Part shown: positions 44 to 14,149 of the stretch, piece by piece
Layout of the letters: each line of letters begins with the position of its first letter
How positions within the stretch are numbered: the first letter of the stretch is position 1
Virus record (IMG/VR): IMGVR_UViG_3300035182_001706
Span: 1-23,677 of that record
Source of the DNA: a virus
Reading direction: 5' to 3' (one strand)
DNA length: 23,677 nucleotides
Notes under the pieces: generated by a model
Databases searched by the model: none
What the model was told of the DNA's origin: nothing
Seen by the model: only the letters and a program-made list of their open reading frames with translations
Position numbers and translations under genes: made by a program

Positions 44-71
44 AAACTAACCCCCTTTAAAATATTATTCT

Positions 72-277: not shown

Positions 278-350
278 AATGAAAATATATAAAATACTAT
301 TATAATAATATTCTTAATATATTTATTATTATTTTAAAAAAAATGGTTAT

Positions 351-367
351 AGGGGGATAAACCCCCT
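351..367 (-). terminator. G/C hairpin between the iteron arrays, possible terminator
   Basis: AGGGGG and CCCCCT form a 6-bp stem around a 5-base loop. On the minus strand it is followed after about 7 bases by a run of eight T. It could end the early operon after the primase gene, or be a structural element of the origin. The gap before the T run makes it a non-standard terminator. Confidence 0.4.
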
Positions 368-379
368 TAAAAAATGGTT

Positions 380-440
380 GGTAACAAATTGGAACAAACA
401 GGTAACAAGCGGGTAACAAGTGGGAACAAACAGGTAACAA
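380..440 (+). repeat. Right iteron array (GGTAACAA), about 11-bp periodicity
   Basis: Exact copies start at 380, 401, 412 and 433. Degenerate copies (TGGAACAA and GGGAACAA) start at about 390 and 422. The six positions are thus spaced 10 to 11 bp, placing all sites on one face of the DNA helix. The last copy ends three bases before the primase-helicase stop codon. Confidence 0.85.
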
Positions 441-442
441 CG

Positions 443-2461
443 CTAAAAAGGCTTATCATCAAGCCATTCTTTAGCTTTATCATTTACACTAATAAACCAG
501 ACACCTTTTTCGTTCTCGACATAACCCTTAGCCTTCATTTTGCTTAGAGTCTTTCGTAAAACTCCGTTATTGGTGCCTGGTAGGAGTTGCTGGATTTCAG
601 ACAACGGCTTTTCGCCATATTCTAAAATACTAAGAATCATTTCTTTTAGTGTCGTTCCAGCATCTTCGAGAGTTTTCTTTTCGACACTAAAACGCTTATT
701 TTCCGTCTCTTTAATCTCAAATATCTCAGGCTCGTATAGTCGGGTAAAGTTGCTTTTCTTGTGGACTAATTGCAAAACAATGCCATTTTTATTCGACACT
801 TTTTTAGCATACCAGATATTTCTGGCGTCATTAAAAAAGAAAACACTTCCGTAGGGGTCAGGGTTATCTGAGTTCTTAGCAACGTGCGATAGCAACAGCC
901 ACGTAGTTGGTATCTTTAACAACGTCTGAGAATATAAAGAAACAGCTTCAGGGCTAAAAACATCAGACACCATAGACTTGACAACGCTATCAACGATAAT
1001 TACGTCAATCTTTTTCTCTTTAACCTCGTTATAAATCTGTTCTATTTCGTTGCCCAGTCTTGTATGGCAAGCCCTTATATAGATATTTTTTGCGTCGCCC
1101 GTAATCTTTCGGATAGTTCTTGCTATTGCTTCTGTATTTGGGTTCTCGTAATCTAAATACAAAACATTGTAGCCCAATTTATCCAATCTGGTGGCTAAAT
1201 AACAAGCGTAGGTAGACTTTCCCGTAGAGCCCGCTCCATAAATCAAATTTATTGCACCCTCTAATATAAATGGCTCAATCAAAAATTTGGGCTCGTATGA
1301 TGTAACCTTTATATCGGTTATTTTTTCAGAGCTTGCCATTATATAACGCTTCAAAAACTCTTTTTTAAAGCTCTCGACTAATTGCGATAAAATCGCTTCA
1401 GATATAAAACTAACATTTAATTTTAAAGCATTAACCAAAACCCGCGTTCCCGTTGAAGAGTGGAAATTATAATTAGCCGAATATAAATCCTGCACTAAAA
1501 CCTGCTCGTGCGCGCTCGTAATTTTTAAATAGCACTTTATACCATCTTTGTCTTGGAAGACAGATTTTACAGTAAAATACATTTTTAGCTTAGGATAGAA
1601 AAGCTCATATCCGAAGGGTATTTCTCTCATTTCAAATAAATCAGGCAATATATCAATCCTTCGGTGCTTCTCATAAATAGATTTTAGGGTTCTTTCTATC
1701 TCGCCTATATTCAATGGTGGGTTATTCTTGGTGTTCCAAGTAATAGCATTCTCGAGACAGTCTTCATACGATAACCCGTCATTTATCCACGAGCCCGCTA
1801 ACCTTGCTAAAGTCTCATTACGACTGCCCTGCCCTGCACCCTTGTAAAGCTCAGTAATATCGTGTTTGCTCTTTTTTATCTCTAAGGCTTTTAAAATCAC
1901 TTCAGGAATTTCTGCTATCTCAGTAGTCTCAAGCGGGTATTTATCGCTCCATCTGTAAACTTTTGGTGGTGTAAATTTAACAACATTGCCATCTTGAGAA
2001 ACCAACTCATAAAACATAGAGGGGGAAGCTACGACATAGCCACCCTCAGACCTTACATCAAAGAACTTGCTTTCGTCGGTCTTTGCTTGTATATTTCTTA
2101 TCCCTTCCTTATATCTAAAAAACAAATGGAAGTGGTTATTATCCGCCCGCGTTAATGCAATAGGGGTGGGTAATATCTCTTTCTGGTGCTCTTTAAAGAA
2201 CTTGTAGCCCGTTTCATTATCTACATCAACCACAGTGAGATTGCTCACTTTGCCCGTTACAATAGCAATATTATACTTACCGTCTCCGAACCACTCTTTT
2301 AGCTCTTCGTGGGTTGGTAATCTATTCTGATATTCAATCCACGAGCTAATTGCTGGTCTTTTATCATTCTTTCTAACAGGAAACACACTAAAGCCATAGG
2401 TGTATACATACTTAACCGCCCATTCATAGATAGAGTCAGCCTCTGATAATTGTGCCATCAT
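443..2461 (-). CDS. Primase-polymerase / AAA helicase replication protein
   Basis: A 672-residue protein. The N-terminal part is a bifunctional primase-polymerase domain (PF09250 type): the DxD metal motif in VVDVDN is at about residues 77-82, HFHLFFRY at about 110, and FDVRSEGGYVVASPS at about 134. A primase C-terminal helical segment follows at about 205-265. An AAA/RepA-like ATPase comes next, with Walker A GAGSTGKST (about 409-417), Walker B IDVIIVDSV (about 485-493) and a sensor-like LLLSHVAK. The end resembles a winged helix. The protein should prime and unwind DNA at the adjacent iteron origin and may bind it. I chose ATG at 2461 because GGGGGC lies just upstream; the TTG at 2482 has no such site. 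It overlaps the preceding gene. It is the last gene of the early operon. Confidence 0.92.
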   Translation of the reverse strand: MMAQLSEADSIYEWAVKYVYTYGFSVFPVRKNDKRPAISSWIEYQNRLPTHEELKEWFGDGKYNIAIVTGKVSNLTVVDVDNETGYKFFKEHQKEILPTPIALTRADNNHFHLFFRYKEGIRNIQAKTDESKFFDVRSEGGYVVASPSMFYELVSQDGNVVKFTPPKVYRWSDKYPLETTEIAEIPEVILKALEIKKSKHDITELYKGAGQGSRNETLARLAGSWINDGLSYEDCLENAITWNTKNNPPLNIGEIERTLKSIYEKHRRIDILPDLFEMREIPFGYELFYPKLKMYFTVKSVFQDKDGIKCYLKITSAHEQVLVQDLYSANYNFHSSTGTRVLVNALKLNVSFISEAILSQLVESFKKEFLKRYIMASSEKITDIKVTSYEPKFLIEPFILEGAINLIYGAGSTGKSTYACYLATRLDKLGYNVLYLDYENPNTEAIARTIRKITGDAKNIYIRACHTRLGNEIEQIYNEVKEKKIDVIIVDSVVKSMVSDVFSPEAVSLYSQTLLKIPTTWLLLSHVAKNSDNPDPYGSVFFFNDARNIWYAKKVSNKNGIVLQLVHKKSNFTRLYEPEIFEIKETENKRFSVEKKTLEDAGTTLKEMILSILEYGEKPLSEIQQLLPGTNNGVLRKTLSKMKAKGYVENEKGVWFISVNDKAKEWLDDKPF

Positions 2462-2972
2462 ATCGCCCCCATAAAATAGCAATAATTCTCTCGGCTCTGA
2501 CTATATCTGTTTTTCTTTCGGACTTCAAGTCGAAATTTATCCTTTCTATCATAATGGCATTAGCCATATTTACATTAAATATCAAGCCGTATCCCTTTTC
2601 TAAACCATAATAGTAGTATGCTAAATCTTCAACAGCAACATTTGCTCCAATTTTTACATCAAAAAAGTTTGTTAAAACCTTTCTAAACATTGCTAAAGCC
2701 GTCAAGGAGCCCAATTTATGGGCCGTATCAAATAAAGCTAAACTTAAGAAGGGGGTAAATAAATACGCCCCAACTTCTTTATAAATACTTTCAAAATGCT
2801 TTTGTGCTATTCTTTCCGCGTCCTGTATATAACCCTGTTGGTAAAAGCTATCTACTTGCTCGAATAGTTCTGGGTTGTCTTTTTTATAAATTCCATATAA
2901 CATTTGGGTATCTTTGTTTTTATAAACTTTACCATCAAGAGCAACAATTAATTCGTAAGCCTCTTTAAACAT
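2436..2972 (-). CDS. GH108-like (phage lysozyme fold) protein, probably altered catalytic site
   Basis: A 178-residue protein. Its start aligns with glycoside hydrolase family 108 lysozymes: F-x-E-A near residue 2, then ALDGK at 11-15 where the family has the catalytic EGG motif, then LYGI at 25-28 where the family has KYGI. FDTAHKLG at 81-88 matches the conserved FDTAVNMG-type motif, and an IGAN segment near 108 matches IG-x-x-T. The usual catalytic Glu is thus Asp13 and the following GG is not kept. There is no signal peptide. The gene sits in the replication operon, directly before the primase gene, far from the lysis genes. The family assignment is by eye. A non-enzymatic or repurposed role is inference. 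The start has a CGGAGG site. Confidence 0.6.
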   Translation of the reverse strand: MFKEAYELIVALDGKVYKNKDTQMLYGIYKKDNPELFEQVDSFYQQGYIQDAERIAQKHFESIYKEVGAYLFTPFLSLALFDTAHKLGSLTALAMFRKVLTNFFDVKIGANVAVEDLAYYYYGLEKGYGLIFNVNMANAIMIERINFDLKSERKTDIVRAERIIAILWGRYDGTIIRG

Positions 2973-3207
2973 TTTTTGCCTCCGACTCTTTTTCTATAGC
3001 TTCAATCATAACGCCAAAACTCTGTAGGTCGTCGTTTAAAAGGTCAATTCTTGCCTCAATCTTATTCAAATATACTTTTGATAGATTAATATTGCCATCT
3101 TTAATTTCAAAAAACAGGCTGTCTAAGTCTCGCTTTAGTTTTTTTATTATATCTTCGTCTATTGCTAAGCTGTGCTTTACTAAATCAAACAATGTTTTTA
3201 TTGCCAT
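2965..3207 (-). CDS. Small helical protein of unknown function
   Basis: An 80-residue, charged protein rich in Leu, Ile, Asp and Lys with heptad-like spacing over residues 18-70, so probably a helical bundle or coiled coil. It has no recognisable motif. An AAGGTG ribosome-binding site precedes the ATG. It starts one base after the nuclease gene stop and overlaps the next gene by 8 bases, so it is translationally coupled in the early operon. I do not recognise its family. Confidence 0.7.
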   Translation of the reverse strand: MAIKTLFDLVKHSLAIDEDIIKKLKRDLDSLFFEIKDGNINLSKVYLNKIEARIDLLNDDLQSFGVMIEAIEKESEAKNV

Positions 3208-3208
3208 T

Positions 3209-4123
3209 TTACACCTTCTTTGTTCCGAAAGAGAAGCTTACTTTTTGTCCAACCACTTGCGAAATTTTTTCGTTTTGCTTTGCAAGTTTTTTAGCCTTTA
3301 TTGTATCAATCTTTAACGCCTCTATATAATCGATGCCCTCTTGCTGGCACAAAGCAATAAACTCTACGGGGTCAATTATTAAATTAACCCTTTCGAAAAA
3401 CCCAATTTTTTTGTCTCCAATTATAATATGGTCGCCCGTTAATTCTAAGTGCCTTTTTAGCATTGCTTCGTATTTCTTGGACAACGCTTCAATGTATAAA
3501 TACTTTTCGGCTATCTCTTTTATATTTAGTTCATTTACACTCTTTTGGCCCATTTCACAAGCCCCGCGATATTCACACATATCACAACTTGAAGTTTTTA
3601 CTTGCATTCTCTTTATTCTTTTTTTTGCTTTCTCTATCTCTGCCCTTATGTCTAAATCGGTAGATACCTCAACGAGGCTTATGGGTTGGTAATTATTAAA
3701 GGTTGCCAATATGCCAACCAATGTAGGCTTGCGAGACTCTAAGTTAGCCATAGTCGCATAAGCATTTAATTGTAGGGCGTCTTTTTCATTTATATCGCTG
3801 GAATAGCGACATTTTATATCGATAATTATACGCAAGTCGGGCCTTTCGATTACTAAATCTGCAAAACCAATAAACTCATAATTGTCAATCGTTAGCCTGT
3901 ATTCTTTTTCCGTCTCTATCTCGGCGCCTTTTAAATACTCATTTAAAGCCTCATAATTAGCTTTACCGTCCATAAAATCCTGTTGGATTTTTTCGTGGAT
4001 TTCTTTTGCTGACTCAAATTCTGGTATTTCGGTATCTGCTGGTGCTTGCTCTATATATCTTTTTTCAAATGCCAATTTACAGCCCTTAGTCGCCTCTATC
4101 TTTGAGTGGCTCCAATGTTCCAT
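3209..4123 (-). CDS. PD-(D/E)XK nuclease with four-cysteine (Fe-S) motif, Cas4/RecB-like
   Basis: A 304-residue protein. It shows a nuclease core in order: His43 in a helix, Asp89 in GFADLV, Asp102-x-Lys104 in IIDIK, and Gln118/Tyr122 in QLNAYA. These are the motifs of RecB/Cas4-type PD-(D/E)XK exonucleases. Cys15 together with Cys180, Cys183 and Cys189 (C-x2-C-x5-C) reproduces the split four-cysteine pattern that holds a 4Fe-4S cluster in Cas4, AddB and Dna2. About 110 residues follow the cluster, as in phage DUF2800-like nucleases. With the ERF protein at 5706-6488 it probably makes the resecting half of a phage recombination pair. The ATG has a GGGGGC site and overlaps the preceding stop (TAATG). 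The absence of any other cas gene argues against a CRISPR role. Confidence 0.85.
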   Translation of the reverse strand: MEHWSHSKIEATKGCKLAFEKRYIEQAPADTEIPEFESAKEIHEKIQQDFMDGKANYEALNEYLKGAEIETEKEYRLTIDNYEFIGFADLVIERPDLRIIIDIKCRYSSDINEKDALQLNAYATMANLESRKPTLVGILATFNNYQPISLVEVSTDLDIRAEIEKAKKRIKRMQVKTSSCDMCEYRGACEMGQKSVNELNIKEIAEKYLYIEALSKKYEAMLKRHLELTGDHIIIGDKKIGFFERVNLIIDPVEFIALCQQEGIDYIEALKIDTIKAKKLAKQNEKISQVVGQKVSFSFGTKKV

Positions 4124-4443
4124 TATTTAGCCCCCTTTTTTCTTAATTCTCTTATTAAATATAATGTTAAAAAATAAGCCGTTGAGTCATAGCTTGAAAA
4201 AACCATTTCTTTATCCCTAACTTTATCAACATATAAAAGATTGTTCCAATATTCTAAGAATATATTTTGGGTCGTTTTTTTAATTTCATTTAAAACCTCA
4301 TCATTTAACTTATACTTAAACATAGTCTCGCCAAACATTCTTCCCCTTATCAAAGATAAAATATCTTTTAGTTTTTCCGAATATCCCGCCAAAGTCAAAA
4401 ACTCTTCGGCTTCTTTAAAATTTTTAAACTCTTTTAGCTCCAT
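4123..4443 (-). CDS. Unknown protein, paralogue of the gene at 4657-4908
   Basis: A 106-residue protein. It shares a clear pattern with the 83-residue protein encoded at 4657-4908: an M-x-L-x-E-F-x-N start, E-A-E-x-F, G-Y, a following I-L segment, E-T, then L-x-Y-W-N and a C-terminal Y-L-I-x-E-L-R. The longer copy carries an insertion of about 20 residues in the middle. The two are separated by a coiled-coil gene. The function is unknown. The start has a GGGGGTGG site and overlaps the upstream stop. Confidence 0.7.
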   Translation of the reverse strand: MELKEFKNFKEAEEFLTLAGYSEKLKDILSLIRGRMFGETMFKYKLNDEVLNEIKKTTQNIFLEYWNNLLYVDKVRDKEMVFSSYDSTAYFLTLYLIRELRKKGAK

Positions 4444-4655
4444 TATCCACCCCCTTCAATTACTTCATTTAAATCATTTATAGAACTATCAATATCATAC
4501 ACCAGCGATAATGCGTCTTCAATTTGTGCTTTAGTCTTTTCTGTGTAATATTTTATCTCAGAGATATTGTCATTGATACTATCTATTTTAGAATCTAACT
4601 GCTTTTTTAAAGCTTCTAACCTGTTGGCAATTGTTATTATTTCGTTTTTATCCAT
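4443..4655 (-). CDS. Small coiled-coil protein
   Basis: A 70-residue acidic protein with regular hydrophobic spacing through residues 5-65 (Ile/Leu with Lys, Asp and Glu), consistent with one long coiled coil. It has no membrane segment. An AGAGGT site precedes the ATG. It lies between the two paralogous genes 4123-4443 and 4657-4908 with overlapping or near-overlapping junctions, so the three may be made together. I do not recognise it. Confidence 0.65.
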   Translation of the reverse strand: MDKNEIITIANRLEALKKQLDSKIDSINDNISEIKYYTEKTKAQIEDALSLVYDIDSSINDLNEVIEGGG

Positions 4656-4656
4656 T

Positions 4657-4908
4657 TTATACCTCTCTTAATTCATTTATTAAATACATTACTAAAACAT
4701 AGCCGATTGTATAATCTTGGAGGCTCGGCCTACAAGGGGTGTCCATTATTCTGCTGTTCCAATACACCAAAAAACTTTCGGCCTTTTTTGTTTCGCTATT
4801 CCATTCCATTTTTATTATTTCAAGGATTTTAGAAAACTGTGTTGCGTAGCCTACTTCACTAAAAAACCTTTCGGCTTCTTCTATATTTTCAAACTCTATT
4901 AGTCTCAT
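4657..4908 (-). CDS. Unknown protein, shorter paralogue of the gene at 4123-4443
   Basis: An 83-residue protein with an M-R-L-I-E-F-E-N start, the E-E-A-E-R-F-F helix, V-G-Y, FLVYWN at about residues 46-51, and a closing YLINELRE. These elements match the 106-residue product of 4123-4443 in the same order, which indicates an old tandem duplication. An AAGGTG site lies 5 bases before the ATG, and one base separates it from the dcd stop. The function is unknown. Confidence 0.7.
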   Translation of the reverse strand: MRLIEFENIEEAERFFSEVGYATQFSKILEIIKMEWNSETKKAESFLVYWNSRIMDTPCRPSLQDYTIGYVLVMYLINELREV

Positions 4909-4909
4909 T

Positions 4910-5470
4910 TTACACCTTCGCCGTCGTAAGCTTTTTTTGATTCTGGTATTTACCGTCTTTATCTTTGTAACTTATTTCGCACACTTCATTAGCCTTTAGA
5001 AAAATAACTTGGGCTATGCCTTCAAAAGCATATATTTTAGCTGGTAAAGGCGTGGTGTTGGATATTTCTATTGTAACATAGCCTTCCCATTCGGGCTCAA
5101 AAGGTGTTACATTTACAATAATTCCGCACCTTGCATAGGTAGATTTGCCAACGCATATTGTCAAAATATCTCTTGGAATTCTAAAATATTCTAAGCTTCT
5201 TGCTAAAACAAAACTATTGGGTGGTATAATACAAGAACTGCCTTCATAGTCAATATAGCTATTCTCGGAAAAGTTTTTCGGGTCAATTATTGCATTATTT
5301 ACATTTGTAAATATTTTAAACTCGTCAGAGATACGCATATCGTAACCATAACTGGAAACTCCGTATGAAATAATTTTTACGCCTCCGATATCTTTAATCT
5401 GCCTGCTCTCAAATGGCTCTATCATTCCGCCGATTGCCCTTTTAATAATTTCTTTATCGCTCAAAATCAT
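4910..5470 (-). CDS. dcd: dCTP deaminase
   Basis: A 186-residue protein, close to the usual bacterial length. It converts dCTP to dUTP and so supplies the dTTP pathway. The central motif [19 protein letters not shown] carries the Ser (about 110) and Arg (about 114) equivalents of the active site. The Glu of YVTIEISN (about 135) matches the catalytic Glu. SSYGYDMR near 40 and a [10 protein letters not shown] strand near 150 also fit the trimeric Dcd fold. I chose ATG at 5470 because GAGGTG lies 5 bases upstream; the ATG at 5482 has no site and overlaps the upstream stop. Phage-borne Dcd typically expands the nucleotide pool during DNA synthesis, which agrees with its place among replication genes. 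No dUTPase is visible in the window. Confidence 0.93.
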
Positions 5471-5478
5471 TTTGCACC

Positions 5479-5709
5479 TCATAAATCTTTTATTTTTATT
5501 ATTCCAAGCTCTTTAAGTTGCTTTTCGACTTTCTTAAGTTTATATTTGCTAATAAACAACTCTTTAGAAAACTTTTCTAATTCAATCTTACCATCAATAT
5601 TCCCAAGAATTCCATAAATAACCACTAATTTAGTTTCTGGTATTAGCATTTCGTCCGTCAATGTATTTTGTATAACGTAAATTTTATCTGCTAATGAGTT
5701 CTTTTTCAT
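5479..5709 (-). CDS. Small protein, possible winged-helix fold
   Basis: A 76-residue protein. Its predicted helices are followed by a [15 protein letters not shown]-type ending, which resembles the recognition helix and wing of small winged-helix proteins (helix, then L-x-x-L-G-I-I). It has no other motif. Its ATG overlaps the erf stop (ATGA) and AGGTG lies upstream, so it is coupled to the recombinase. A DNA-binding role is inference. Confidence 0.6.
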
Positions 5710-6488
5710 TCTACACCTGCCTTTACCAATTCAATCATTACCTTATTTGCCTCAGCCTTTCTTATTTTGTCAATGGATATTATTGAACGGCCGATTATTT
5801 TAGATATAATCTGTATTGCTTCATCTTCTTTTAAATTCTTTCGGTCTATTATTTGCTGAATATTTTTTATTTGTTTCTCGTCTATGGTTGGCTCGTTTAC
5901 GTCTTTATCTTTCATTTTTTCTTTAATTTTAGATTGCTCTTCTTTGGTTTTTTCGATTTCTTTTTTAATGTTATTGTTTATGATTTCTTTTTCTTCTTCT
6001 AAGTCATTAGCATCAGTGTCTTCTTCAGTGGCTAATCCTAAGGCTAAAGACAGAGAATATCTTTTAGCGTAGGTTAGCGCCGTAGCTAATGCCTGGATTG
6101 GTAGCATATATTCCGAATATTGGACTATAGCCCGAAACGTCGTAATTTCTTGCCAACCTTCTATATGGCTTATGAAGCACTTTACTATTATAATCTTATC
6201 TTGGTATTCAGCCTCAAACCTATAGGATAACCCGTATTTATCTAATAAAGGCTTTATCGCCTCAACCACATCGTCAAAACTTGCGTAATTGTAGCGAACC
6301 GTCTTACCGTCCCTATTATATACCGTCTTGGTCTTTTTTATGGACGGTATTTGTGTTTGGAACTCGGACAATGCCTTATAAAATGCTTTTTTAGAAGCCA
6401 TTTTTTCGGACTCCGATTTCATTTCTAACAACTTATTTAAGATTTCTATATTGTTAATTTCTATTGCCTTAGCTATTAAATCGTTCAT
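5706..6488 (-). CDS. erf: ERF-family single-strand annealing recombinase
   Basis: A 260-residue protein with the ERF (PF04404) signature: the KAFYKALSEFQ helix near residue 34, a YNYASFDDVV segment near 67, IKPLLDKYGLSYRF near 77-90, and ALTYAKRYSLSLALGLATEEDTD at about 136-158. The C-terminal 100 residues are a charged Lys/Glu linker followed by a small helical end. ERF proteins anneal complementary single strands in phage recombination. Here it sits with SSB upstream and a nuclease downstream. An AGGGGGTG site lies 5 bases before ATG at 6488. It overlaps both neighbours. Confidence 0.92.
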   Translation of the reverse strand: MNDLIAKAIEINNIEILNKLLEMKSESEKMASKKAFYKALSEFQTQIPSIKKTKTVYNRDGKTVRYNYASFDDVVEAIKPLLDKYGLSYRFEAEYQDKIIIVKCFISHIEGWQEITTFRAIVQYSEYMLPIQALATALTYAKRYSLSLALGLATEEDTDANDLEEEKEIINNNIKKEIEKTKEEQSKIKEKMKDKDVNEPTIDEKQIKNIQQIIDRKNLKEDEAIQIISKIIGRSIISIDKIRKAEANKVMIELVKAGVE

Positions 6489-6963
6489 TAGACACCCCCT
6501 GGTATAGTTTCAAAAATATTTTTTTATACATATTTTTCTGTGGGCCTTTAGCTTTTTTATATTTCAGATAATACTGGACACATTTTGCCCAGCTGTAGAC
6601 CTCTGTTAAGCCTTGCTTCGGAACCCAAACATTAGCAACTTCGGGTAGGTTTTTAGCCTCTAACTCGACTTCCGCCTTTAATTTGCTAAAGGTATTTAAC
6701 GCCTTCGCATAGGTAATGTGGTTAGTTTGTAAATACCACATTAGGGCCCATATGCGATAAAACCTGTTTAGTTTACCCTGCCTTGTGGTGGGCCTTTTCT
6801 GGTGCATATAAGCGAAGAGCTCCACCACTAAAAACTTTAGCGAGTGTTTTTTAAATTTCTCAACTATTGCTAAATTATGAGGCTCTGGTAGCCTCTTAAT
6901 TTGCATATAGTCAGATAGAAGCATTTCTTCCGAGAACTTATTACGGGGCTTATAATTTACCAT
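6469..6963 (-). CDS. Basic protein of unknown function
   Basis: A 164-residue, Lys-rich, mostly helical protein with many aromatic residues (Trp/Tyr around residues 65-75 and 120-135). I see no catalytic motif and do not recognise the family. The ATG at 6963 is chosen because GGGGGC lies upstream and it overlaps the stop of the 43-codon gene at 6957-7088. The longer reading frame from 7041 would run through that small gene and has no ribosome-binding site. It overlaps erf by 20 bases. Its position between ssb and erf suggests DNA metabolism, by context only. Confidence 0.75.
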   Translation of the reverse strand: MVNYKPRNKFSEEMLLSDYMQIKRLPEPHNLAIVEKFKKHSLKFLVVELFAYMHQKRPTTRQGKLNRFYRIWALMWYLQTNHITYAKALNTFSKLKAEVELEAKNLPEVANVWVPKQGLTEVYSWAKCVQYYLKYKKAKGPQKNMYKKIFLKLYQGVSNERFNS

Positions 6964-7088
6964 AATAGCCCCCACTTTACTTTGTTTAGCTCCATAAAAA
7001 TTAACAAAATCAATAATAAATCGATAATACCAAACACCCAAACAATGCCCTTTTTAGCATTGTTTCCGTAATTCTTGTAATCAATCAT
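6957..7088 (-). CDS. 43-residue single-pass membrane peptide
   Basis: A short gene of 43 codons (start MIDYKNYGNNAKKG). It has a polar, basic N-terminus and one hydrophobic segment at residues 15-32 (GIVWVFGIIDLLLILLIF), then a charged end. An AAGGGGGTTGT ribosome-binding site lies directly before ATG at 7088, just after the ssb stop, and its TAA overlaps the next gene's ATG by a few bases. The spacing and coupling match the rest of the operon, so I take it as a real gene. The function is unknown. Confidence 0.65.
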   Translation of the reverse strand: MIDYKNYGNNAKKGIVWVFGIIDLLLILLIFMELNKVKWGLLW

Positions 7089-7097
7089 ACAACCCCC

Positions 7098-7451
7098 TTA
7101 GAACGGCTCGCCGTCTTCGAACCTTTCTTTTTCTTTAGCACCATTTATAAATTGAAAACCACTAAGGACAACGTCCATTCTTTGCTTATTGTTGCCCTCT
7201 TTATCCTGCCATTTTTGAAGCCTCAATCTGCCCTCAACAAAAATGGCGGAACCCTTTTTACAATATTGAGATATTACTTCAGCCTGTTTTCCAATTGCCG
7301 TAATGTCCAAAAAAAGCACTTCATCCTTGTCCTTGCCTTTAGTATTTACAGCAAGGCCAAAGGACCCAATCGCCACATTGGTGGCGGTATACTTCAATTC
7401 GACATCTCTTGTGAGATGCCCCATAAGTAAAATACGATTCAAATTCGGCAT
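7098..7451 (-). CDS. ssb: Single-stranded DNA-binding protein
   Basis: A 117-residue OB-fold SSB. It has the usual opening LNRILLMGHLTRDVELKYT, then an FGLAVNT strand, an FLDITAIGKQAE segment, KKGSAIFVEGRLRLQKWQDKEG and a VVLSGFQF strand. The acidic tail ends in DGEPF, matching the DDDIPF-type tip that recruits partner proteins. I chose ATG at 7451: CGGAGG lies 4 bases upstream, and this makes the protein begin just before the conserved core. A longer frame from 7499 adds 16 unrelated residues without a site. It is preceded by a strong terminator and a structured leader, so its expression is probably separately controlled. Confidence 0.95.
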   Translation of the reverse strand: MPNLNRILLMGHLTRDVELKYTATNVAIGSFGLAVNTKGKDKDEVLFLDITAIGKQAEVISQYCKKGSAIFVEGRLRLQKWQDKEGNNKQRMDVVLSGFQFINGAKEKERFEDGEPF

Positions 7452-7463
7452 AAAACCTCCGAT

Positions 7464-7507
7464 ACAGCGACTACTTGTTCCTGCCAATCGGTCAGGCATC
7501 GTCGCTT
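7464..7507 (-). promoter_or_regulatory. Structured leader of ssb
   Basis: On the minus strand AGCGAC and GTCGCT can close a 6-bp outer stem. Inside it, CCTGACC-GATT-GGCAGG forms a second hairpin with one bulged base. The structure ends about 7 bases before the CGGAGG site of ssb and begins just after a terminator T run. It could be an attenuator, a processing site or a regulator-binding element. I match it to no known riboswitch. Confidence 0.4.
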
Positions 7508-7511
7508 TATC

Positions 7512-7542
7512 AAAAAAAACTGGTGCTTGTTAAACACCAGTT
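7512..7542 (-). terminator. Strong intrinsic terminator before ssb
   Basis: The minus strand reads an 8-bp perfect stem AACTGGTG/CACCAGTT with a 9-base loop, followed by a run of eight T. It overlaps the last codons of the gene at 7530-7787. Transcripts from the early promoters should mostly stop here unless antiterminated. Confidence 0.8.
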
Positions 7543-7787
7543 ATAGGGAGAACGCTTCTTTCGACTAAAGTTATTCTATCTAAAGTTTCATCGTATTCTA
7601 ATTCGTAGACGGTTATACCGTCCACTTTCTCACCGCATTTGCTCCTGAATTTATTACCTTCGCCATCTCTATAAATATTTGCTTTAAATTTTGGGTGCTC
7701 ATATGGTCCTATGTAGTAGACTATCTTTACCGCCTCATTGTCTATTGCACTAATTATCTTTTTCCTCGAACCTATAAAATTAATCAT
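7530..7787 (-). CDS. Unknown early protein
   Basis: An 85-residue protein, mixed alpha/beta in appearance, with a beta-rich look (IVYYIGPYEH, ITVYELEYD). I recognise no motif. The start has CGGAGGTTT 5 bases upstream, the same ribosome-binding context as the genes at 7995 and 7451 and complementary to the proposed small RNA. It overlaps the preceding gene by 8 bases and its 3' end forms a terminator hairpin. As a small first-operon gene it could modify the host or regulate transcription; that is inference. Confidence 0.65.
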   Translation of the reverse strand: MINFIGSRKKIISAIDNEAVKIVYYIGPYEHPKFKANIYRDGEGNKFRSKCGEKVDGITVYELEYDETLDRITLVERSVLPITGV

Positions 7788-7995
7788 TTGAAACCTCCGA
7801 TTTTATAACTTTAGGCGGGCATAGGTGCTCGCCTAACTCTATTACATTTATAATCTCGCCATTAACATCAATAAAGACGCCCTCGTCGTCTATTACATTG
7901 TTAACAAAATATTTTCCCTCGCCCTCGTAGACATTCAGGTGGTTATGGTTATAACCACCGAAGTCCCACTCACCCAGTAACACTGCTTTAACCAT
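7780..7995 (-). CDS. Unknown acidic first early protein
   Basis: A 71-residue acidic protein with an EWDFGGYNHNH segment near residue 9 and several Asp/Glu. It is the first gene behind the early promoters and its leader is about 40 bases. A CGGAGGTT site lies upstream of ATG at 7995. No family is recognised. Small acidic first-operon phage proteins often act on host factors, but nothing in the sequence shows this. Confidence 0.65.
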   Translation of the reverse strand: MVKAVLLGEWDFGGYNHNHLNVYEGEGKYFVNNVIDDEGVFIDVNGEIINVIELGEHLCPPKVIKSEVSND

Positions 7996-8018
7996 TGGGA
8001 ACCTCCGAAAAGTTTTTA

Positions 8019-8041: not shown

Positions 8042-8071
8042 ATAATATATCAAATATTTTTTATTTGTCAA
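8042..8071 (-). promoter_or_regulatory. Early operon promoter
   Basis: On the minus strand there is a perfect -35 box TTGACA at 8066-8071. The -10 box is TATATT at 8044-8049 (16-bp spacer) or TATTAT at 8042-8047 (18-bp spacer). The expected start is about 8036. It drives the genes at 7995 and 7787. Confidence 0.75.
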
Positions 8072-8091: not shown

Positions 8092-8120
8092 ATAATAAGA
8101 TTTTGCTATTAAAACAACAA
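8092..8120 (-). promoter_or_regulatory. Possible second early promoter upstream
   Basis: TTGTTG (8115-8120) and TATTAT (8092-8097) lie 17 bp apart on the minus strand. It is weaker than the promoter at 8042-8071. In such AT-rich DNA a chance match is possible. Confidence 0.35.
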
Positions 8121-8163: not shown

Positions 8164-8250
8164 CAATAAAAGAGCCCCAATAGCTGGCAACTACTATTGG
8201 GGCGCTGGCCTAAAAAAGGAGGAGATGATGAACTTATACGGAGGTTTTCT
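8164..8250 (-). ncRNA. Candidate small RNA with anti-Shine-Dalgarno seed
   Basis: A promoter with extended -10 box (8257-8285) predicts a transcript starting near 8250. A 10-bp terminator hairpin ends it near 8165, giving about 87 nt. The 5' end is A/C/U-rich, and the seed AAAACCTCCG is at 8239-8248. A second motif CTCCTCCTTTTTT follows near 8213-8225. CCTCCG with its flanking AA is the exact complement of CGGAGGTT, the ribosome-binding context of the genes starting at 7995, 7787 and 7451 (8, 9 and 10 matching bases). I infer a trans-acting RNA that masks translation starts. The sequence shows the promoter, hairpin and complementarity, not activity. It lies in the 372-base gap 7996-8367, which holds no protein gene I can support. 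Confidence 0.6.
8165..8203 (-). terminator. Intrinsic terminator of the candidate small RNA
   Basis: GCCCCAATAG (8174-8183 on plus) pairs perfectly with CTATTGGGGC (8194-8203) around a 10-base loop. On the minus strand TCTTTTATT follows directly. On the plus strand no T run follows, so the sense is minus. Confidence 0.7.
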
Positions 8251-8256
8251 ATTGCT

Positions 8257-8285
8257 ATTATAGCAATAAAATATATAAAAATCAA
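8257..8285 (-). promoter_or_regulatory. Strong promoter with extended -10 inside the control region
   Basis: On the minus strand TTGATT (8280-8285), a 17-bp spacer and TATAAT (8257-8262) preceded by TGC make a near-consensus extended -10 promoter. It lies just after the late terminator, and the next element is a terminator, not a gene. Confidence 0.7.
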
Positions 8286-8294: not shown

Positions 8295-8317
8295 AAAAAC
8301 GCCCTCAACGGGCGTTT
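8295..8317 (-). terminator. Late operon terminator
   Basis: AAACGCCC (8297-8304) and GGGCGTTT (8310-8317) form an 8-bp stem around 5 bases. On the minus strand TTTTTATGTTTT continues from the stem. It lies about 50 bases after the last late gene. The A/T-flanked stem could also work partly on the plus strand. Confidence 0.8.
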
Positions 8318-8367
8318 AACTATTGAGTAGGAAACACTTTTAAATTATAAACATTTAAACCATTTTG

Positions 8368-9006
8368 TCAAATCCAAGTTGCCGTGCCCGCCTCTAATTG
8401 TTTTATTTGGTTAGAGAATTCTTTTTGCCATTGGACAACCACTTTATCAGCCACTAAGTCCAAAATCTTTTTAAACATAAATTCTTGGCCATAAACCTTA
8501 AGGGCAATTAACTTGCCACTTGCTTCACGCCCAAAGACTAATGGTGTTCCGCCTCGCCCTCTTGCAATAAAAACGCCCTCTATATTTCCAATCTGCCATT
8601 GGCCACCACTTATAATAGTTTGTTGGCCTTTTATAATTTGCACTTGCACCCCGCCCGTTGCTTGCTTTCTCGTCCCTTTGGTGGTCAATTCAAATTTGCC
8701 CTTTTTAGTTTTAATCTGAGTTTTTATTCTATCGCTTATTTGGACTGGGTTAAAATATGACATTAGGATAGGCTCGCCTACTACCAATATTTCTGCTTTT
8801 GTTTCGTTATATTTGGTAGATATTTTTTTATCTAAATCAGATTTTTTTATATTAAAGCCCAATTTATCTCTAATGTCGGAGCTGGCCTCTGTCTTACCGC
8901 TTCTAATAGAGTTTCTTAAGGCAAACTTAATCGCTTTATTAATCTGCTCGGGGTTATATTTTTCTTTTACCTGCTCCACGCCTTCAAGCTTAATCGAAAC
9001 TTCCAT
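8368..9006 (-). CDS. Minor tail protein Z-like (tail completion) protein
   Basis: A 212-residue protein resembling prophage minor tail protein Z (PF06763): an N-terminal helix with KAIKFALRNSIRSGKTEASSDIRDKLGF near residues 25-52, the phrase KKSDLDKKI, a basic middle part and a Gly/Arg stretch FIARGRGGTPLVFGR near 147-161. Proteins of this family finish or cap the tail near the head. It overlaps the preceding lysis gene (TAATG) and ends the late operon, while Z genes usually lie between head and tail genes. The family call is by eye. Confidence 0.65.
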   Translation of the reverse strand: MEVSIKLEGVEQVKEKYNPEQINKAIKFALRNSIRSGKTEASSDIRDKLGFNIKKSDLDKKISTKYNETKAEILVVGEPILMSYFNPVQISDRIKTQIKTKKGKFELTTKGTRKQATGGVQVQIIKGQQTIISGGQWQIGNIEGVFIARGRGGTPLVFGREASGKLIALKVYGQEFMFKKILDLVADKVVVQWQKEFSNQIKQLEAGTATWI

Positions 9007-9380
9007 TATAACAGCACCAATATGGCTATTCCGAGACCCGCGCCCATTATAAAATATTGAACTTTATCGCCTATGGAAGGTTTTTTGTGGCTTACGCACT
9101 CATTATAAGCATTTTTATAATTATTAGCAATAGTTTGTTGAAGCTCCACTTGCTCTTTAAGGAGACTATTTTGCTTAGCTAAAGCTTCATTCTGGTTTTT
9201 TAAATTCTGGGTTAGTTCTTGGTATTCTTTTATTTCTTGGTCTAAAACTCTTTTTTGCTCCAATTCAACAACCATATTGGAAGCGTCAGAAACACTAAAA
9301 CAAACCTTATCTTCGGCAAATGCTGTTGTTGTTCCAATTAAAAAAAAGGCTATTAAAAAAACACTAATTAGTCGGCTCAT
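9006..9380 (-). CDS. Lysis-cassette protein: signal peptide, coiled coil, C-terminal membrane segment
   Basis: A 124-residue protein. Residues 1-22 look like a Sec signal peptide (MSRLISVFLIAFFLIGTTTAFA). Residues about 35-85 form a coiled coil rich in Gln, Leu, Lys and Glu. Residues about 108-124 are a hydrophobic C-terminal segment (YFIMGAGLGIAILVLL). No lipobox Cys follows the signal. It starts inside the end of the spanin-like gene at 9364-9702, as outer-membrane spanins often do, but its topology is nearer to a unimolecular spanin without the lipid anchor. It probably acts in the periplasm at lysis. The start has a GGGG site. Confidence 0.7.
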   Translation of the reverse strand: MSRLISVFLIAFFLIGTTTAFAEDKVCFSVSDASNMVVELEQKRVLDQEIKEYQELTQNLKNQNEALAKQNSLLKEQVELQQTIANNYKNAYNECVSHKKPSIGDKVQYFIMGAGLGIAILVLL

Positions 9381-9702
9381 AACCCAACCCCTTAAATCTT
9401 TGTTTTAGCTCTTTTACACTTTTAGGCTCTGTTATCTTTTGCCTTTTATATTCATACTTAGAGATTGTTTTTTCTTTCAGCTCTTGCTCTTTCTTTAGAA
9501 CATCTAATTGGTCTTGTAAATCCTTAATCTGGGTATCTTTTTCTTTTACCAACCTTTCTAAAGACTTATTCGTGTCTCTAATTACCTTTTGCTCGCTTTT
9601 ATAATTGGTTATATCGACATAGACTATATACGCAAGGACAATAAAAACAAACCCCGCAATATACCATTTATAACGATTCAGAATACTTACCAATATCTGC
9701 AT
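9364..9702 (-). CDS. Inner-membrane spanin (Rz-like) candidate
   Basis: A 112-residue protein with a short cytoplasmic start, one membrane segment at about residues 13-29 (WYIAGFVFIVLAYIVYV), then a long charged coiled coil at about 32-90 and a short tail. This is the type II topology of Rz-type i-spanins, which link the inner membrane to an outer-membrane partner for the last lysis step. It overlaps the lysozyme gene upstream by 16 bases and the next gene downstream by 17 bases. GGGGGTTGA precedes the ATG. Sequence-level homology to Rz cannot be shown by eye. Confidence 0.65.
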   Translation of the reverse strand: MQILVSILNRYKWYIAGFVFIVLAYIVYVDITNYKSEQKVIRDTNKSLERLVKEKDTQIKDLQDQLDVLKKEQELKEKTISKYEYKRQKITEPKSVKELKQRFKGLGYEPTN

Positions 9703-10271
9703 TCAACCCCCTGGTATTTAATACCTTTTTCATACACTTTTAGAGAATATTCGTAATTTATATCACAACTGCCCCGCCATTGTTTGCAAACCCCGCCTTG
9801 TCTCCAAACACAAATAGATTGATTATATTTCGCGACACATACATCGAGAGCCCTTTCCCAATTGCCCCGTCCTTCCACTGCCTCACGGTTCACATAATAA
9901 GCACTACGGTTATATATCTGGTATATAACCCAAAGCTTTTTAATCTTAGCCCGCTCTTGCGCGTCCTTAATTATATAAGCTTGCGATAAAAAATAATCAA
10001 AATTATCTTTTTGCTTCCAATTAGAGAAATACTTTTTTAGAACTTTATCCCAGTAAACGGGTGTAATTTGTGCATACCCAATGCTACCAATTCCATCTAA
10101 GCTTGTTCGCCAAAAACAATTGGTCTCAACTTCTATTTGGCCTAAATTAAATTGGTAAGGATAGCTAATTCCGAGCACAAATTCGCTCGCATTCTTTACT
10201 TTCGGTATTAAAACTCTGCAATCTGCCCTTGCTATGGAAAACATCAAAAGAAAAACTAATAAAACCCTCAT
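9687..10271 (-). CDS. Exported transglycosylase-like lysozyme (endolysin)
   Basis: A 194-residue protein. A signal peptide with a likely cut after ARA at residue 16 would send it to the periplasm. The catalytic region reads GQIEVETNCFW with Glu47/Glu49 candidates near 45-54, then SLDGIGSIGYAQITPVYW near 57-74. This is the E-x-x, then S/G-x-x-G-x-x-Q-I-x-P arrangement of lytic transglycosylase (SLT) folds. Several cysteines in the C-terminal third could form disulfides. It should cut peptidoglycan at lysis. ATG at 10271 lacks a clear ribosome-binding site, so it may be coupled to the short upstream frame at 10276-10344. Confidence 0.8.
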   Translation of the reverse strand: MRVLLVFLLMFSIARADCRVLIPKVKNASEFVLGISYPYQFNLGQIEVETNCFWRTSLDGIGSIGYAQITPVYWDKVLKKYFSNWKQKDNFDYFLSQAYIIKDAQERAKIKKLWVIYQIYNRSAYYVNREAVEGRGNWERALDVCVAKYNQSICVWRQGGVCKQWRGSCDINYEYSLKVYEKGIKYQGVECRYW

Positions 10272-10275
10272 ATCG

Positions 10276-10344
10276 CTACGCTAATGGCCCGCCACGCTTG
10301 TTTAGGCCTTCAGACTTACAATTACACCTAAAAATCATTTGCAA
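10276..10344 (-). CDS. Possible 22-codon leader or mini-gene before the lysozyme
   Basis: TTG at 10344 or ATG at 10338 opens a short frame ending with TAG at 10276, four bases before the lysozyme ATG. The peptide contains C-N-C. AAGGGG lies 10 bases before the TTG, somewhat far. The lack of a site before the lysozyme ATG makes translational coupling plausible. The alternative is a non-coding structured leader, since the same stretch has imperfect direct repeats. Confidence 0.25.
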   Translation of the reverse strand: MQMIFRCNCKSEGLNKRGGPLA

Positions 10345-10356
10345 CGCTTGTAGGCC
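10291..10356 (-). repeat. Imperfect direct repeat in the lysis-cassette gap
   Basis: On the plus strand GCAACGCTTG-TAGGCC (10341-10356) and GCCACGCTTGTTTAGGCC (10291-10308) are related units about 50 bp apart, differing by two bases of indel and one substitution. The gap is richer in G and C than its surroundings. Confidence 0.5.
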
Positions 10357-10376
10357 CCTTTACGAATATGTTTTTT

Positions 10377-10658
10377 TTAGCCAAAGGCAATAATTATAGA
10401 ACTACTCAATAAGATAGTTAAATAATATGCCACCTTAAGCCTTGCGTCAGCGTCCCATTCAATATGTCCTATTCTTAAGACTCTAAAAATATAAGCCAAA
10501 GAATACCATAGAGAAACTAAAAAAACTTTCTTAAATACAAACTGTAGTGGTGCATAAAATAAGCCTATTATTCCACTCGCAAAAATAAACAAACCAATCA
10601 AAATAATTGTATTTTGTAACCCAAAACCTTTTAAATAATCTTTTAGACTTTTTTTCAT
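10377..10658 (-). CDS. Holin candidate
   Basis: A 93-residue protein with a basic N-terminus and three likely membrane segments: about residues 17-35, 42-60 and 74-92. The size, topology and place directly before the lysozyme gene suit a class I holin. I see no family signature, so the role rests on topology and context. A GGGGG site lies 6 bases before the ATG. It begins right at the stop of the fibre-like gene, and a gap of about 105 bases separates it from the lysozyme gene. Confidence 0.6.
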   Translation of the reverse strand: MKKSLKDYLKGFGLQNTIILIGLFIFASGIIGLFYAPLQFVFKKVFLVSLWYSLAYIFRVLRIGHIEWDADARLKVAYYLTILLSSSIIIAFG

Positions 10659-11378
10659 TTATACCCCCGTTTTATAGCTCACTAATGCACTGCTTGTGGT
10701 TATATATTTTATTGTTAGCTCCATAACTTTTCCCGCCGTTGTTGAGGTAGGCAAGGCTACTCCTAAACCTGCATAATTAGTGCCAAAAGATATATTCTGG
10801 GCCGTTCCATTATCCAAAATATAAATAAGAAAACTATCGCCCGCCTTAACATTTGTGGCATTATTTATCGTTATGCTATTTGCTAAAACCAAAGAATAAT
10901 ACTCATCGTAAACTGTTTTATCAGGAGTGATTTGTGTAGGAGAATTTACAGTATTTTGTCTTGGTGGAAAATTATTAAAATCGCCAGTCATAATATATTT
11001 AGAGTCGACACTATCATATGCAAAAATTACAGCCGTTATGGAATTTGGTAAAGTGCTTGGTTGGAAACCATTTACGATATTACTGCCCCAAGTTATTACT
11101 CGCCCGCCCGTAGAATCTTGCTTTATCAATAGAATACATTTTCCGCCCGCTCGTCCATTGGTAAAGTTTATCGTTGTGTTTCCCGTTAAAGTTACAATCT
11201 GAGAATCGCTCTTGCTCCAATCAACCGTTATGGCGCTCGAAAAGGTTATTTGGTTTAGAGATAAATTAAATCTATTAAAAAAATCATTAATCGTTTGAAA
11301 ATTGGTAGAATATATATTATTCCAGCCCGTTGTGCCGTAGGTTGCTGTTTGCATACCCGTTGGTGATAATGTAGCCAT
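10659..11378 (-). CDS. Two-domain fibre-like tail protein
   Basis: A 239-residue protein. After a short N-terminal attachment-like region, residues about 53-135 form a beta-rich unit with LTGNTTINFTNGRAGG, then a Q-D-S-T-G-G-R-V-I-T-W phrase, seen in many phage tail-fibre repeats. Residues about 160-239 form a second unit with the same plan (ANSITINN, KAGDSFLIYILDNGTAQNISFG). This looks like an internal tandem duplication. It lies between the hub protein and the lysis genes, a usual place for fibres or tail-tip decorations. An AAGGGGGC site precedes the ATG. Receptor binding is inference. Confidence 0.65.
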   Translation of the reverse strand: MATLSPTGMQTATYGTTGWNNIYSTNFQTINDFFNRFNLSLNQITFSSAITVDWSKSDSQIVTLTGNTTINFTNGRAGGKCILLIKQDSTGGRVITWGSNIVNGFQPSTLPNSITAVIFAYDSVDSKYIMTGDFNNFPPRQNTVNSPTQITPDKTVYDEYYSLVLANSITINNATNVKAGDSFLIYILDNGTAQNISFGTNYAGLGVALPTSTTAGKVMELTIKYITTSSALVSYKTGV

Positions 11379-11387
11379 ATTGCCCCC

Positions 11388-13670
11388 TTAATTTATAGAA
11401 TATACGCCGTCAGAAGCTCCAACATATAGAGACTTGCTTGACGAATACTGTCCGTTGTTATAATGCCTTACGCTTACCGTGAAGGCGCTCGCATTATTAA
11501 CCACTATATTTGGTGTGGTATAAACCGTTACATTGGTTCCAATAGTAACCTCGAAACTTCCTTCAACCAAAAATGGGTAGGTATCGGTGTAGGTGTCCGC
11601 ATTTTGGTAACCCGCTCCATCTAAATTAGTCTTAGTTACTGCAAATATATCAATATTTACATTTGCCCCGCTTCTTGTGGCTACTATAGCCTGCGGAGTA
11701 ATTGGTATATTTGCCTTATTGCTCAAATTTACTTGTATAGCCGTTACTTGCGACAAATCTAAAACAGAGTTCATAACTATTGGGGCCACTTTCAAATAAA
11801 AGGTATTTACATTATACGGAACGCTTAAAATGTTGTCTCCGATATTATTAATCCACGCTTGGGCTCCACTGCTATGGTCTGTCTTTGTGGTCCATAAAAG
11901 ACCCCTTATTATACCCGTAATGCTATAATCTGCGGTCCCATAGGGGTTAAGGTTTTGAAAAGCCATTATCTCGTTATCCACTATTAAAACCCTTTTCTGA
12001 GTAAATAACCCTGTGCTATCCGTGCTCGCATATGTATAAAACTCTTTATATGGGGTAAACAATAACCCGTTGGAGTCTATATCATAGGTATTGGAGCTAT
12101 ACGGCCCGTCTAAAACTCCAGCCGTAGCCCAAGAACTACAGGTTGTTAGCAACTCATAATTAGAGCCGTCAGTGCTTCCATATACAGCGAAACCTGTTTC
12201 GTAGCCCATTTCTTTATTAGCAAGAATTAAAAGTGCTGGGTTAGATATTCCACTTATATAGTCTAACTCTAAAATTTTTATGTGTGTTAAAGGGGTAGCC
12301 GTAAAAGTAGGTTGCACCCATTGTGTCCCGCCAACATTTAAGAAGTTGGTGTCCATTTGTGCTTCGGTCTGCTCCAAAAGTTGCATTGTTATTTCATTGC
12401 TATCAATCGCTGGCTCGCTTATCGAAAGAATTCTAAAATTACCATTTAAACCAATATCGGAATTTATTACCGTTAAAACATCGCCAATAGAATACATCGC
12501 ATATTTTATCGGTAATTTTAAATTTAAGGTCATTCTCGGGTAACTGCCTTGCTTCATAAATTCAGACAATCTCGCCATCGCTGTCGCTTGGTCTATAAAA
12601 GCCGTCAAATCTATCTCTTGGCGAACCTTCATTCCCGCTAACAATTGGGTTGCTGGGTTCTCAAGAATTAGTGTTCTCGTTACTCCATTGTCTACATAAT
12701 TACCAACAAATTGGTTGTAGATTGTATTCCAACTGGGCTTTGCTAAAGAGAAACTTATCCAATCGTCTTGTATGGTCCCTACTGGGGTATCGTCAGGTCT
12801 AAATATCTTTATTACAATCTTGCCATTAGAATCATAATCTAAATAGCTATCGACAAACTCTAAAATCTTATTAGCGCCCTCTTTGGCTTGTGTAGAGGAG
12901 GATATAACATAATTAATGCCCCAACCCTTGCTATAATAATAATCTGAAGCCTGATTAAAATTATCGTAATTCACATCATTTGGGTTCAGCCCCGCTATAT
13001 TCACAAGTAGGTCATATACCGCCCCTGCTGGGTTGGAGCCATTAGACATATTTTCGTTCCTTAAGCCCGTAGACAAAACCTTTTGGATTTTAAAGGTTAT
13101 GGTAGGCACATAAGTTCTGTTTTCGCCACAATATAACCTCTTAAAAAATATGTGTGCCACTCCAGGTATAGACGAGGCATAGGTTAACTGTGGAGCGTCA
13201 GCCGTTGTTGGGTAAACTCCATTAGTGCCATCATTTAACTTTTGGTAAAGGCTCGAGACACCCTTTGTGGTATCTGAATCTTCATACATAGTGATTAAAT
13301 TAATCTTGCCTTGGGCTATGCCCTGCCAAACGTCCATATAATACTTGTAGCCCGTTACAACATCACCGCCACCGCCACCTTTACCGCCCGCCTTTTGCTT
13401 CTCTTCGACGGTATAAAGGTTGCCGTAAAAGATAATATTTCCAGGTATATTTACTATTCCATAGGTCAAAGGCACGGGTTGCCCTTCATTTGTTTGGGTT
13501 ACCTGAAAATCGGCGAAGCTTGCGGGCTTCATATTCATTGTTGGCTTAGGGGTAAAAATAGAAGAAATTAGGGTTAGCCCAACCATTACTAAACCCAATA
13601 TTAAACTACCAGATAAAGCCCAAGTTAGCCCGCCCGTTATAAAGGCACCCAAGATAACCGCGAAGCCCAT
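11388..13670 (-). CDS. Tail hub / tail tip protein (J-like)
   Basis: A 760-residue protein. It starts with a hydrophobic, Gly-rich segment (about 1-40) ending in SSIFTPKP. A QVTQTNEGQPVPLTYGIVNIPGNIIFYGN stretch follows near 55-85, typical of phage tail-tip hub proteins (Phage-tail_3 / J-like and GTA hub families). A Gly-rich linker GGKGGGGG is near 95. The rest is beta-rich with fibronectin-like segments toward the end. It should form the central hub closing the tail tip and lead host contact. The NlpC/P60 gene directly upstream supports this, as the pair is conserved in many siphoviruses and GTAs. Confidence 0.8.
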   Translation of the reverse strand: MGFAVILGAFITGGLTWALSGSLILGLVMVGLTLISSIFTPKPTMNMKPASFADFQVTQTNEGQPVPLTYGIVNIPGNIIFYGNLYTVEEKQKAGGKGGGGGDVVTGYKYYMDVWQGIAQGKINLITMYEDSDTTKGVSSLYQKLNDGTNGVYPTTADAPQLTYASSIPGVAHIFFKRLYCGENRTYVPTITFKIQKVLSTGLRNENMSNGSNPAGAVYDLLVNIAGLNPNDVNYDNFNQASDYYYSKGWGINYVISSSTQAKEGANKILEFVDSYLDYDSNGKIVIKIFRPDDTPVGTIQDDWISFSLAKPSWNTIYNQFVGNYVDNGVTRTLILENPATQLLAGMKVRQEIDLTAFIDQATAMARLSEFMKQGSYPRMTLNLKLPIKYAMYSIGDVLTVINSDIGLNGNFRILSISEPAIDSNEITMQLLEQTEAQMDTNFLNVGGTQWVQPTFTATPLTHIKILELDYISGISNPALLILANKEMGYETGFAVYGSTDGSNYELLTTCSSWATAGVLDGPYSSNTYDIDSNGLLFTPYKEFYTYASTDSTGLFTQKRVLIVDNEIMAFQNLNPYGTADYSITGIIRGLLWTTKTDHSSGAQAWINNIGDNILSVPYNVNTFYLKVAPIVMNSVLDLSQVTAIQVNLSNKANIPITPQAIVATRSGANVNIDIFAVTKTNLDGAGYQNADTYTDTYPFLVEGSFEVTIGTNVTVYTTPNIVVNNASAFTVSVRHYNNGQYSSSKSLYVGASDGVYSIN

Positions 13671-14149
13671 TACAGCTCCACCAATCTAAGCACTTTTTTA
13701 AGGTGCTTCTTCCAATGCTCGTTTAATTCAGACACTATTACGCCCCTTTCTGGTGCACTATGAATAAATTTGTTATTATCTAAACAAACCCCGACGTGAT
13801 TCATTAAACCCTTAGGTGAGTGGTAAGCAAAAAGCAAATAATCGCCTCTATATAAATTGTCAGGCTCAAGCTCAATAAAATCTAAACCACCTTTTAAAAA
13901 CCTCTTATTATACATTATATAGTCGTAAATAATCTCTTTATCAAGGTGTATATACCACTCAGGGGAATATATATCGAATTTATAGCCGTCTAAAATACCT
14001 GCTTGGGTTAGTGCGTTTCCGACAAATTGGTTACAATCAGTCCCCCGCCCTTTTGCCCCCCATAAGTGTCGATAAGGCGTCCCAACCCAACTAAGAAGTT
14101 CGCTTTTAAACTTTGCCCATTCTTCGTCGTTATTAAAAAAATATCTCAT
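13670..14149 (-). CDS. NlpC/P60 family tail-tip peptidase
   Basis: A 159-residue protein. It shows the papain-like triad of the family: Cys39 in GTDCNQFVG, His118 in NHVGVCLD and His130 in FIHSAPERG. WVGTPYRHLWG near residues 21-31 is the usual lead-in. It should cut cell-wall peptides during tail assembly or DNA entry. ATG at 14149 overlaps the previous stop (ATGA) and has GGGG upstream; the frame also opens at a GTG at 14161, which would sit inside the previous gene without a site. It lies between the BR0599-type protein and the hub, matching the GTA order. Confidence 0.9.
   Translation of the reverse strand: MRYFFNNDEEWAKFKSELLSWVGTPYRHLWGAKGRGTDCNQFVGNALTQAGILDGYKFDIYSPEWYIHLDKEIIYDYIMYNKRFLKGGLDFIELEPDNLYRGDYLLFAYHSPKGLMNHVGVCLDNNKFIHSAPERGVIVSELNEHWKKHLKKVLRLVEL

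Follow-up and report, generated by a model that had tools for sequence, protein, structure and literature searches.

What lies between the late and early operons of this phage, where a promoter faces no gene, and could its product act on the early genes? The window, by which we mean the whole stretch of DNA analysed, corresponds to a virus record 23,677 bases long (36.5% GC), and its likely genes are all on the minus strand:

1-7995, minus strand: early genes (ssb, Erf-type annealing protein, exonuclease, dCTP deaminase, primase)
8368-23677, minus strand: late genes (tail hub, tape measure protein assigned from size and position only, neck or tail completion protein, others)

Between these blocks, minus-strand positions 8285-8174 carry, in this order, a promoter, a 5′ arm (about 44 nt, unstructured) and a terminator hairpin:

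8257..8285, minus strand: predicted small RNA promoter, TTGATT, 17 bp, TGC-TATAAT, with 10/12 consensus matches and TG before the -10 box
8165..8250, minus strand: predicted small RNA of about 85 nt, its start near 8250 placed from the -10 position
8207..8250, minus strand: unstructured 5′ arm, on folding and pairing predicted to be antisense to early translation start regions
8239..8248, minus strand: 5′ seed AAAACCTCCG, complementary to CGGAGGTTTT
8209..8224, minus strand: second pairing segment CTCCTCCTTTTTTAGG, CCUCC with the Shine–Dalgarno (SD) sequence and UUUUUUAGG with the leader CCUAAAAAA
8174..8203, minus strand: intrinsic terminator hairpin of the small RNA, 11 pairs with a perfect 10-bp core, tail TCTTTTATTG

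The initial annotation had described a minus-strand promoter facing no gene (8285-8257) and a perfect 10-bp terminator hairpin (stem 8203-8174); both are present, with no gene on the minus strand between them, as is the second motif that it had noticed in the predicted RNA, CTCCTCCTTTTTT. As a generic pattern, promoter-like sites are not in excess in the window (16 versus 15.2 expected from shuffles); terminator-like sites are (8 versus 3.4). The arm, which reads AGAAAACCUCCGUAUAAGUUCAUCAUCUCCUCCUUUUUUAGGCC from the predicted start to the terminator, has a minimum free energy of -1.1 kcal/mol, and most shuffles are more structured. The terminator hairpin is the only stable fold of the RNA, the arm being unpaired or weakly paired. 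In the tail, UCUUUUAUUG, the U run is short; a long 3′ U tract is typical of Hfq-dependent small RNAs. On these predicted signals, the unit has what marks a phage trans-acting antisense small RNA, namely its own promoter and an intrinsic terminator without a conserved open reading frame. The -10 box sits within the palindrome TTGCTATAATAGCAA (8252-8266), a second copy of which, with two mismatches, lies at 8103-8117 (minus strand) upstream of the early promoter; the pair is a possible shared repressor operator.

The unit shares with the early genes the octamer CGGAGGTT, which occurs exactly four times in the window (0.27 +/- 0.47 expected; 0 of 100 shuffles reach four): inverted near the RNA 5′ end, at three early ribosome-binding sites (RBSs), and nowhere else. 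The early sites are as follows:

8000..8007, minus strand: RBS CGGAGGTT of the early gene 7780..7995, candidate target, 8 bp, extended to AACUU (-14.9)
7792..7799, minus strand: RBS CGGAGGTT(T) of the early gene 7530..7787, candidate target, 9 bp
7452..7461, minus strand: RBS CGGAGGTTTT of ssb, candidate target in the window, 10 bp, not conserved in the related contig R2 (below)

The seed near the predicted 5′ end is complementary to 10 bases of the ssb RBS, 9 at the gene starting at 7787 and 8 at the gene starting at 7995, just as first reported. The ssb gene is shorter than its listed frame, with the ATG at 7451 right after CGGAGGTTTT, and its start gives a hybrid energy of -29.0, reached by 0 of 3,000 dinucleotide shuffles and 78 of 3,000 motif-keeping shuffles. 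As the main target, ssb is not robust: R2 ssb has GGGGGGC in place of CGGAGGTT. An extended AAGUU pairing with all leaders was likewise rejected, AACUU being present in some leaders only.

Two related phage contigs were found, R1 (3300035180_002195, loci L020 and L017) and R2 (3300036715_001619, loci L018 and L019); together with the window they make up a comparison set of three close relatives in the collections searched, in which R1 and R2 are not independent. DNA similar to the window was not found in the annotated phage collection. Searching with the tail hub yielded ten contigs of the same phage group, of which only R1 and R2, both already known, carry the unit, and a single match in bacterial genomes (26% identical). 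A 23-base pattern of the RNA had zero copies in the bacterial genomes searched, and a scan with a 14-base terminator pattern, which was too short, gave mostly chance loci, against which BLAST of the unit returned nothing further.

The early regions of R1 and R2 consist of repeated transcription cassettes with a common promoter (TTGACAAATAAA...GATATAG), a leader made of a small hairpin (AGGATT...AATCCT) and then AAAAAA, and a CGGAGGTTTC-type RBS ((C/T)GGAGGTTTC-like), followed by one or two genes. The window holds one such cassette (promoter 8071-8044):

8044..8071, minus strand: early promoter TTGACA-16-TATATT of the promoter-leader cassette, which has 5 copies in R1 and 4 in R2

Cassette genes include one for an ArdC-type antirestriction protein (Pfam ArdcN E = 4e-31), and an Imm-like superinfection immunity gene lies farther downstream in the R2 early region. 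The early accessory cassette region (L018 6623-9022, L017 3704-6652) is mostly missing from the window contig. In R1 and R2, an extra early-type promoter is found just after the small RNA (L017 3492-3560; L018 6414-6480), followed by a very short frame, MTATV(A/P)KIL, without an SD.

The main predicted target of the RNA is a cassette gene, absent from the window contig, whose product starts MNGASNSK and is 116-117 aa long. In the viral collection the 116-aa protein was found only in R1 and R2, and in the annotated phage collection it has no relative; its predicted structure (pLDDT 41.6) was not taken into a fold search. The operon of this gene (L018 8262-8905) encodes two small proteins, 116 and 98 aa long, for which Pfam and PHROG gave no match.

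In a scoring by nearest-neighbour energies that allowed loops of up to 4 nt on each side, the best hybrid of the arm on the whole sense strand fell at the start of this same gene in both R1 (17882, -29.0) and R2 (8262, -32.0). Co-folding of RNA and target gave 24 (R1) and 28 (R2) intermolecular pairs over the leader, the SD and codons 2-3. Nearly the whole 5′ arm takes part in this pairing, beyond the 10-nt seed, and the best target is a gene that the window lacks. In the R2 hybrid, CUUUUUUUAGG lies on the leader CCUAAAAAAAG; further segments of the hybrid are AUCUCC with the SD GGAGGU, UUCA with UGAA and, at codons 2-3, CUCCGUU with AACGGAG. Between the SD and UGAA, the target has an additional U in R1 compared with R2, and the R1 RNA is one base longer at the matching place, the loop at this length difference being 2x2 in R1 and 1x1 in R2. 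The R1 and R2 RNAs each pair better with their own target than with the other's, and the window RNA pairs more weakly with the R1 and R2 targets (-24.4 and -23.1).

The counts that follow hold for one target among some 30-35 gene starts in each genome, and R1 and R2 are related. The energy at the MNGASNSK start was reached in R1 by 2 of 3,000 dinucleotide shuffles and 4 of 3,000 anti-SD-keeping shuffles, and in R2 by none of 3,000 of either kind. Real 43-nt stretches of the same genomes reached it in 3 of 6,159 cases (R1) and 1 of 7,304 (R2), and those with an anti-SD motif in 1 of 100 (R1) and 0 of 58 (R2). The combined support from R1 and R2 is good but not overwhelming. With accessibility included, pairing at early-cassette starts exceeded that at the starts of other genes in both R1 (p = 0.0017) and R2 (p = 0.019); the MNGASNSK start came top in R2, and in R1 it was second, the following gene of its operon ranking above it. 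The proposal that the match goes beyond the GGAGG core is supported, also against the anti-SD-keeping controls. In the window alone, the early leaders were not significantly better than other genes once accessibility was included (p = 0.13). Complementarity to mRNA starts exceeds chance and reaches beyond the SD core in R1 and R2, and is weaker in the window alone.

These controls bear on a reading in which the small RNA is real and its CU-rich, anti-SD-like arm binds many strong SDs, mainly in host mRNAs, with the early match partly a by-product. The arm has CCUCC twice and CCUCCUUU is also found at the 16S rRNA 3′ end; CCUCC motifs alone increase pairing in controls, and several non-early genes of the window pair about equally by accessibility-corrected energy. 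Motif-keeping controls nevertheless rarely match the summed early-target energy (12 of 500 in R1, 2 of 500 in R2 and 14 of 500 in the window), and the pairing takes in non-SD segments, in the leader and codons 2-3. We regard general SD binding as unlikely, although it is the alternative that fares best.

Conservation bears on a second alternative. Promoter, seed, second motif and hairpin keep the same order in R1 and R2; for promoter, seed and hairpin, the initial annotation had named loss of this order in relatives as a refutation, and its reading survives that check. The whole unit is 92.0-93.8% identical in R1 and R2, compared with 78-85% at four-fold degenerate sites of the adjacent late genes and 73% in the DNA directly after the terminator (window versus either relative). 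The 44-nt arm by itself is 88-93% identical, only weakly above background, and too short to prove constraint alone. Promoter spacing in the relatives is 17-18 bp, the -10 box of R1 is weaker (TACAAT), the 15-base palindrome over the -10 box is exact in the window and R2 and broken in R1, and the outer pair of the terminator is G-C in the window and G-U in the relatives.

The unit could nonetheless be a fossil without a regulatory role, left by the translation start of an early cassette that was inserted the other way round beside the terminator, whether or not it is transcribed. Its plus strand, CCTAAAAAAGGAGGAGATGATGAAC...CGGAGGTTTTC, resembles a cassette start with a hairpin upstream, and the RNA may indeed derive from an inverted cassette start, its complement reading CCTAAAAAA-GGAGG-ATGATGAAC-CGGAGG; because of this possible origin, the complementarity is explicable without function. 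Against a mere relic, the unit is conserved above four-fold sites with its minus-strand promoter and terminator kept, and pairing with the target is kept although both sequences have changed. Conservation and the matched length change favour function over relic, if weakly, with three sequences, and we consider a functionless fossil less likely still than general SD binding.

A role in cis is improbable. As it sits immediately upstream of the early operon and shares its strand, the unit might serve as the leader or attenuator of that operon, with transcripts from 8250 partly reading through the hairpin into the early genes. However, strong promoters belonging to the early genes themselves lie downstream of it, with one more in R1 and R2; folding revealed no alternative fold that opens the terminator, and a cis role leaves the complementarity to distant cassettes unexplained. 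A leucine-rich plus-strand small protein gene of 11-12 codons (RBS AAAAAAGGAGG, then ATGATGAAC...), for which SD and ATG spacing is good in the window, can be dismissed as a conserved gene, as single-base indels shift its frame in R1 and the R2 ATG is followed by TGA, so that the conserved element is not a peptide gene.

On the late side of the small RNA lies a further unit:

8297..8371, minus strand: neighbouring unit with a perfect consensus promoter, TTGACA-16-TATAAT (8371-8344), and a terminator (8317-8297)

What had been called the late terminator (8317-8297) has, in this promoter, one of its own, which overlaps the end of the last late gene. The gap between this promoter and the terminator is about 30-50 bases in the window and about 100 in the relatives, where it has an extra hairpin; AAGTGTTTCCTACTCAATAGTTA within the unit is invariant across the window, R1 and R2. 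A target search for it gave none that was convincing, and it may be a second small RNA or the late-operon terminator.

With these alternatives weighed, we lean, with moderate confidence, towards a small RNA of about 85 nt, encoded by the phage, that would act in trans as an antisense repressor of early-cassette translation. The earlier interpretation is partly supported: the observation is confirmed, the idea of a trans-acting RNA was right in kind as regards the small RNA gene and its pairing with early starts, and the main target is a different gene from ssb. The analysis shows the sequence elements, that they are conserved, and pairing in excess of the controls; from these we infer the transcription and repressive action of this RNA and its timing, which the initial annotation placed perhaps at the onset of late transcription. 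Its synthesis would start at a dedicated promoter in the gap between late and early operons and end at the intrinsic terminator, leaving a single-stranded 5′ arm free to pair with the translation start regions of early-cassette mRNAs. There, the 5′ segment (A)AACCUCCG, or else the second CCUCC, would cover the SD, and UUUUUUAGG would bind the common leader stretch CCUAAAAAA just upstream of it; at the MNGASNSK gene of the relatives, nearly the whole arm is predicted to zip over the leader, SD and codons 2-3. Binding of the 30S subunit would be blocked and the duplex probably cleaved, lowering expression of the early accessory genes.

More tentatively, the early cassettes (those for the ArdC-type antirestriction protein and others) may be interchangeable units with one leader and RBS, all under a single antisense RNA descended from an inverted cassette start. 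If this is true, accessory genes could be gained or lost, each new cassette falling automatically into the RNA-controlled regulon. Few phage small RNAs control early genes of their own phage in trans, and most of those known come from enterobacterial phages. If an uncultivated phage has a conserved one that acts on a leader common to modular early cassettes, it would show how newly gained accessory genes are kept under joint post-transcriptional control, and the precise base-pairing predictions given here can be tested in a reporter strain.

A description of this small RNA was not found in the literature searched, and among known phage RNAs several are comparable. The C4 antisense RNA of phages P1 and P7, Rfam family C4 (PMC5320573, PMC12197685), is likewise a phage RNA of about 80 nt with two-part pairing, one segment on the RBS and another upstream for specificity (PMC5320573). 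C4, however, is cut out of a larger transcript by RNase P, and its pairing segments sit in the loops of a three-stem fold, whereas the small RNA here has its own predicted promoter and terminator and a linear arm. Rfam returned zero families at the gathering score, with no C4 among matches up to E = 10, and the folds lack C4-type three stem-loops with pairing loops a' and b', only the terminator hairpin being stable; the RNA is therefore C4-like in logic and not a C4 member.

OOP of phage lambda and sar of P22 are encoded opposite their regulator genes. Both are antisense to such single genes, whereas the RNA here is encoded elsewhere and pairs imperfectly. The likeness is that OOP and sar, small phage RNAs too, use antisense pairing to down-regulate a phage regulator, and that sar does so by disturbing the initiation of translation (PMC12197685). 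VpdS of VP882 and PreS of lambda are trans-acting phage small RNAs at work during phage development, PreS on a host mRNA and VpdS on RNAs of both phage and host, but both are Hfq-bound and differ in sequence and targets (PMC12197685). DicF of the Qin prophage is similarly a short RNA of phage origin that acts in trans, pairing with an mRNA to block its translation; it is Hfq-linked and targets host ftsZ and metabolic mRNAs, whereas the predicted targets here are the phage's own early cassettes (PMC12197685).
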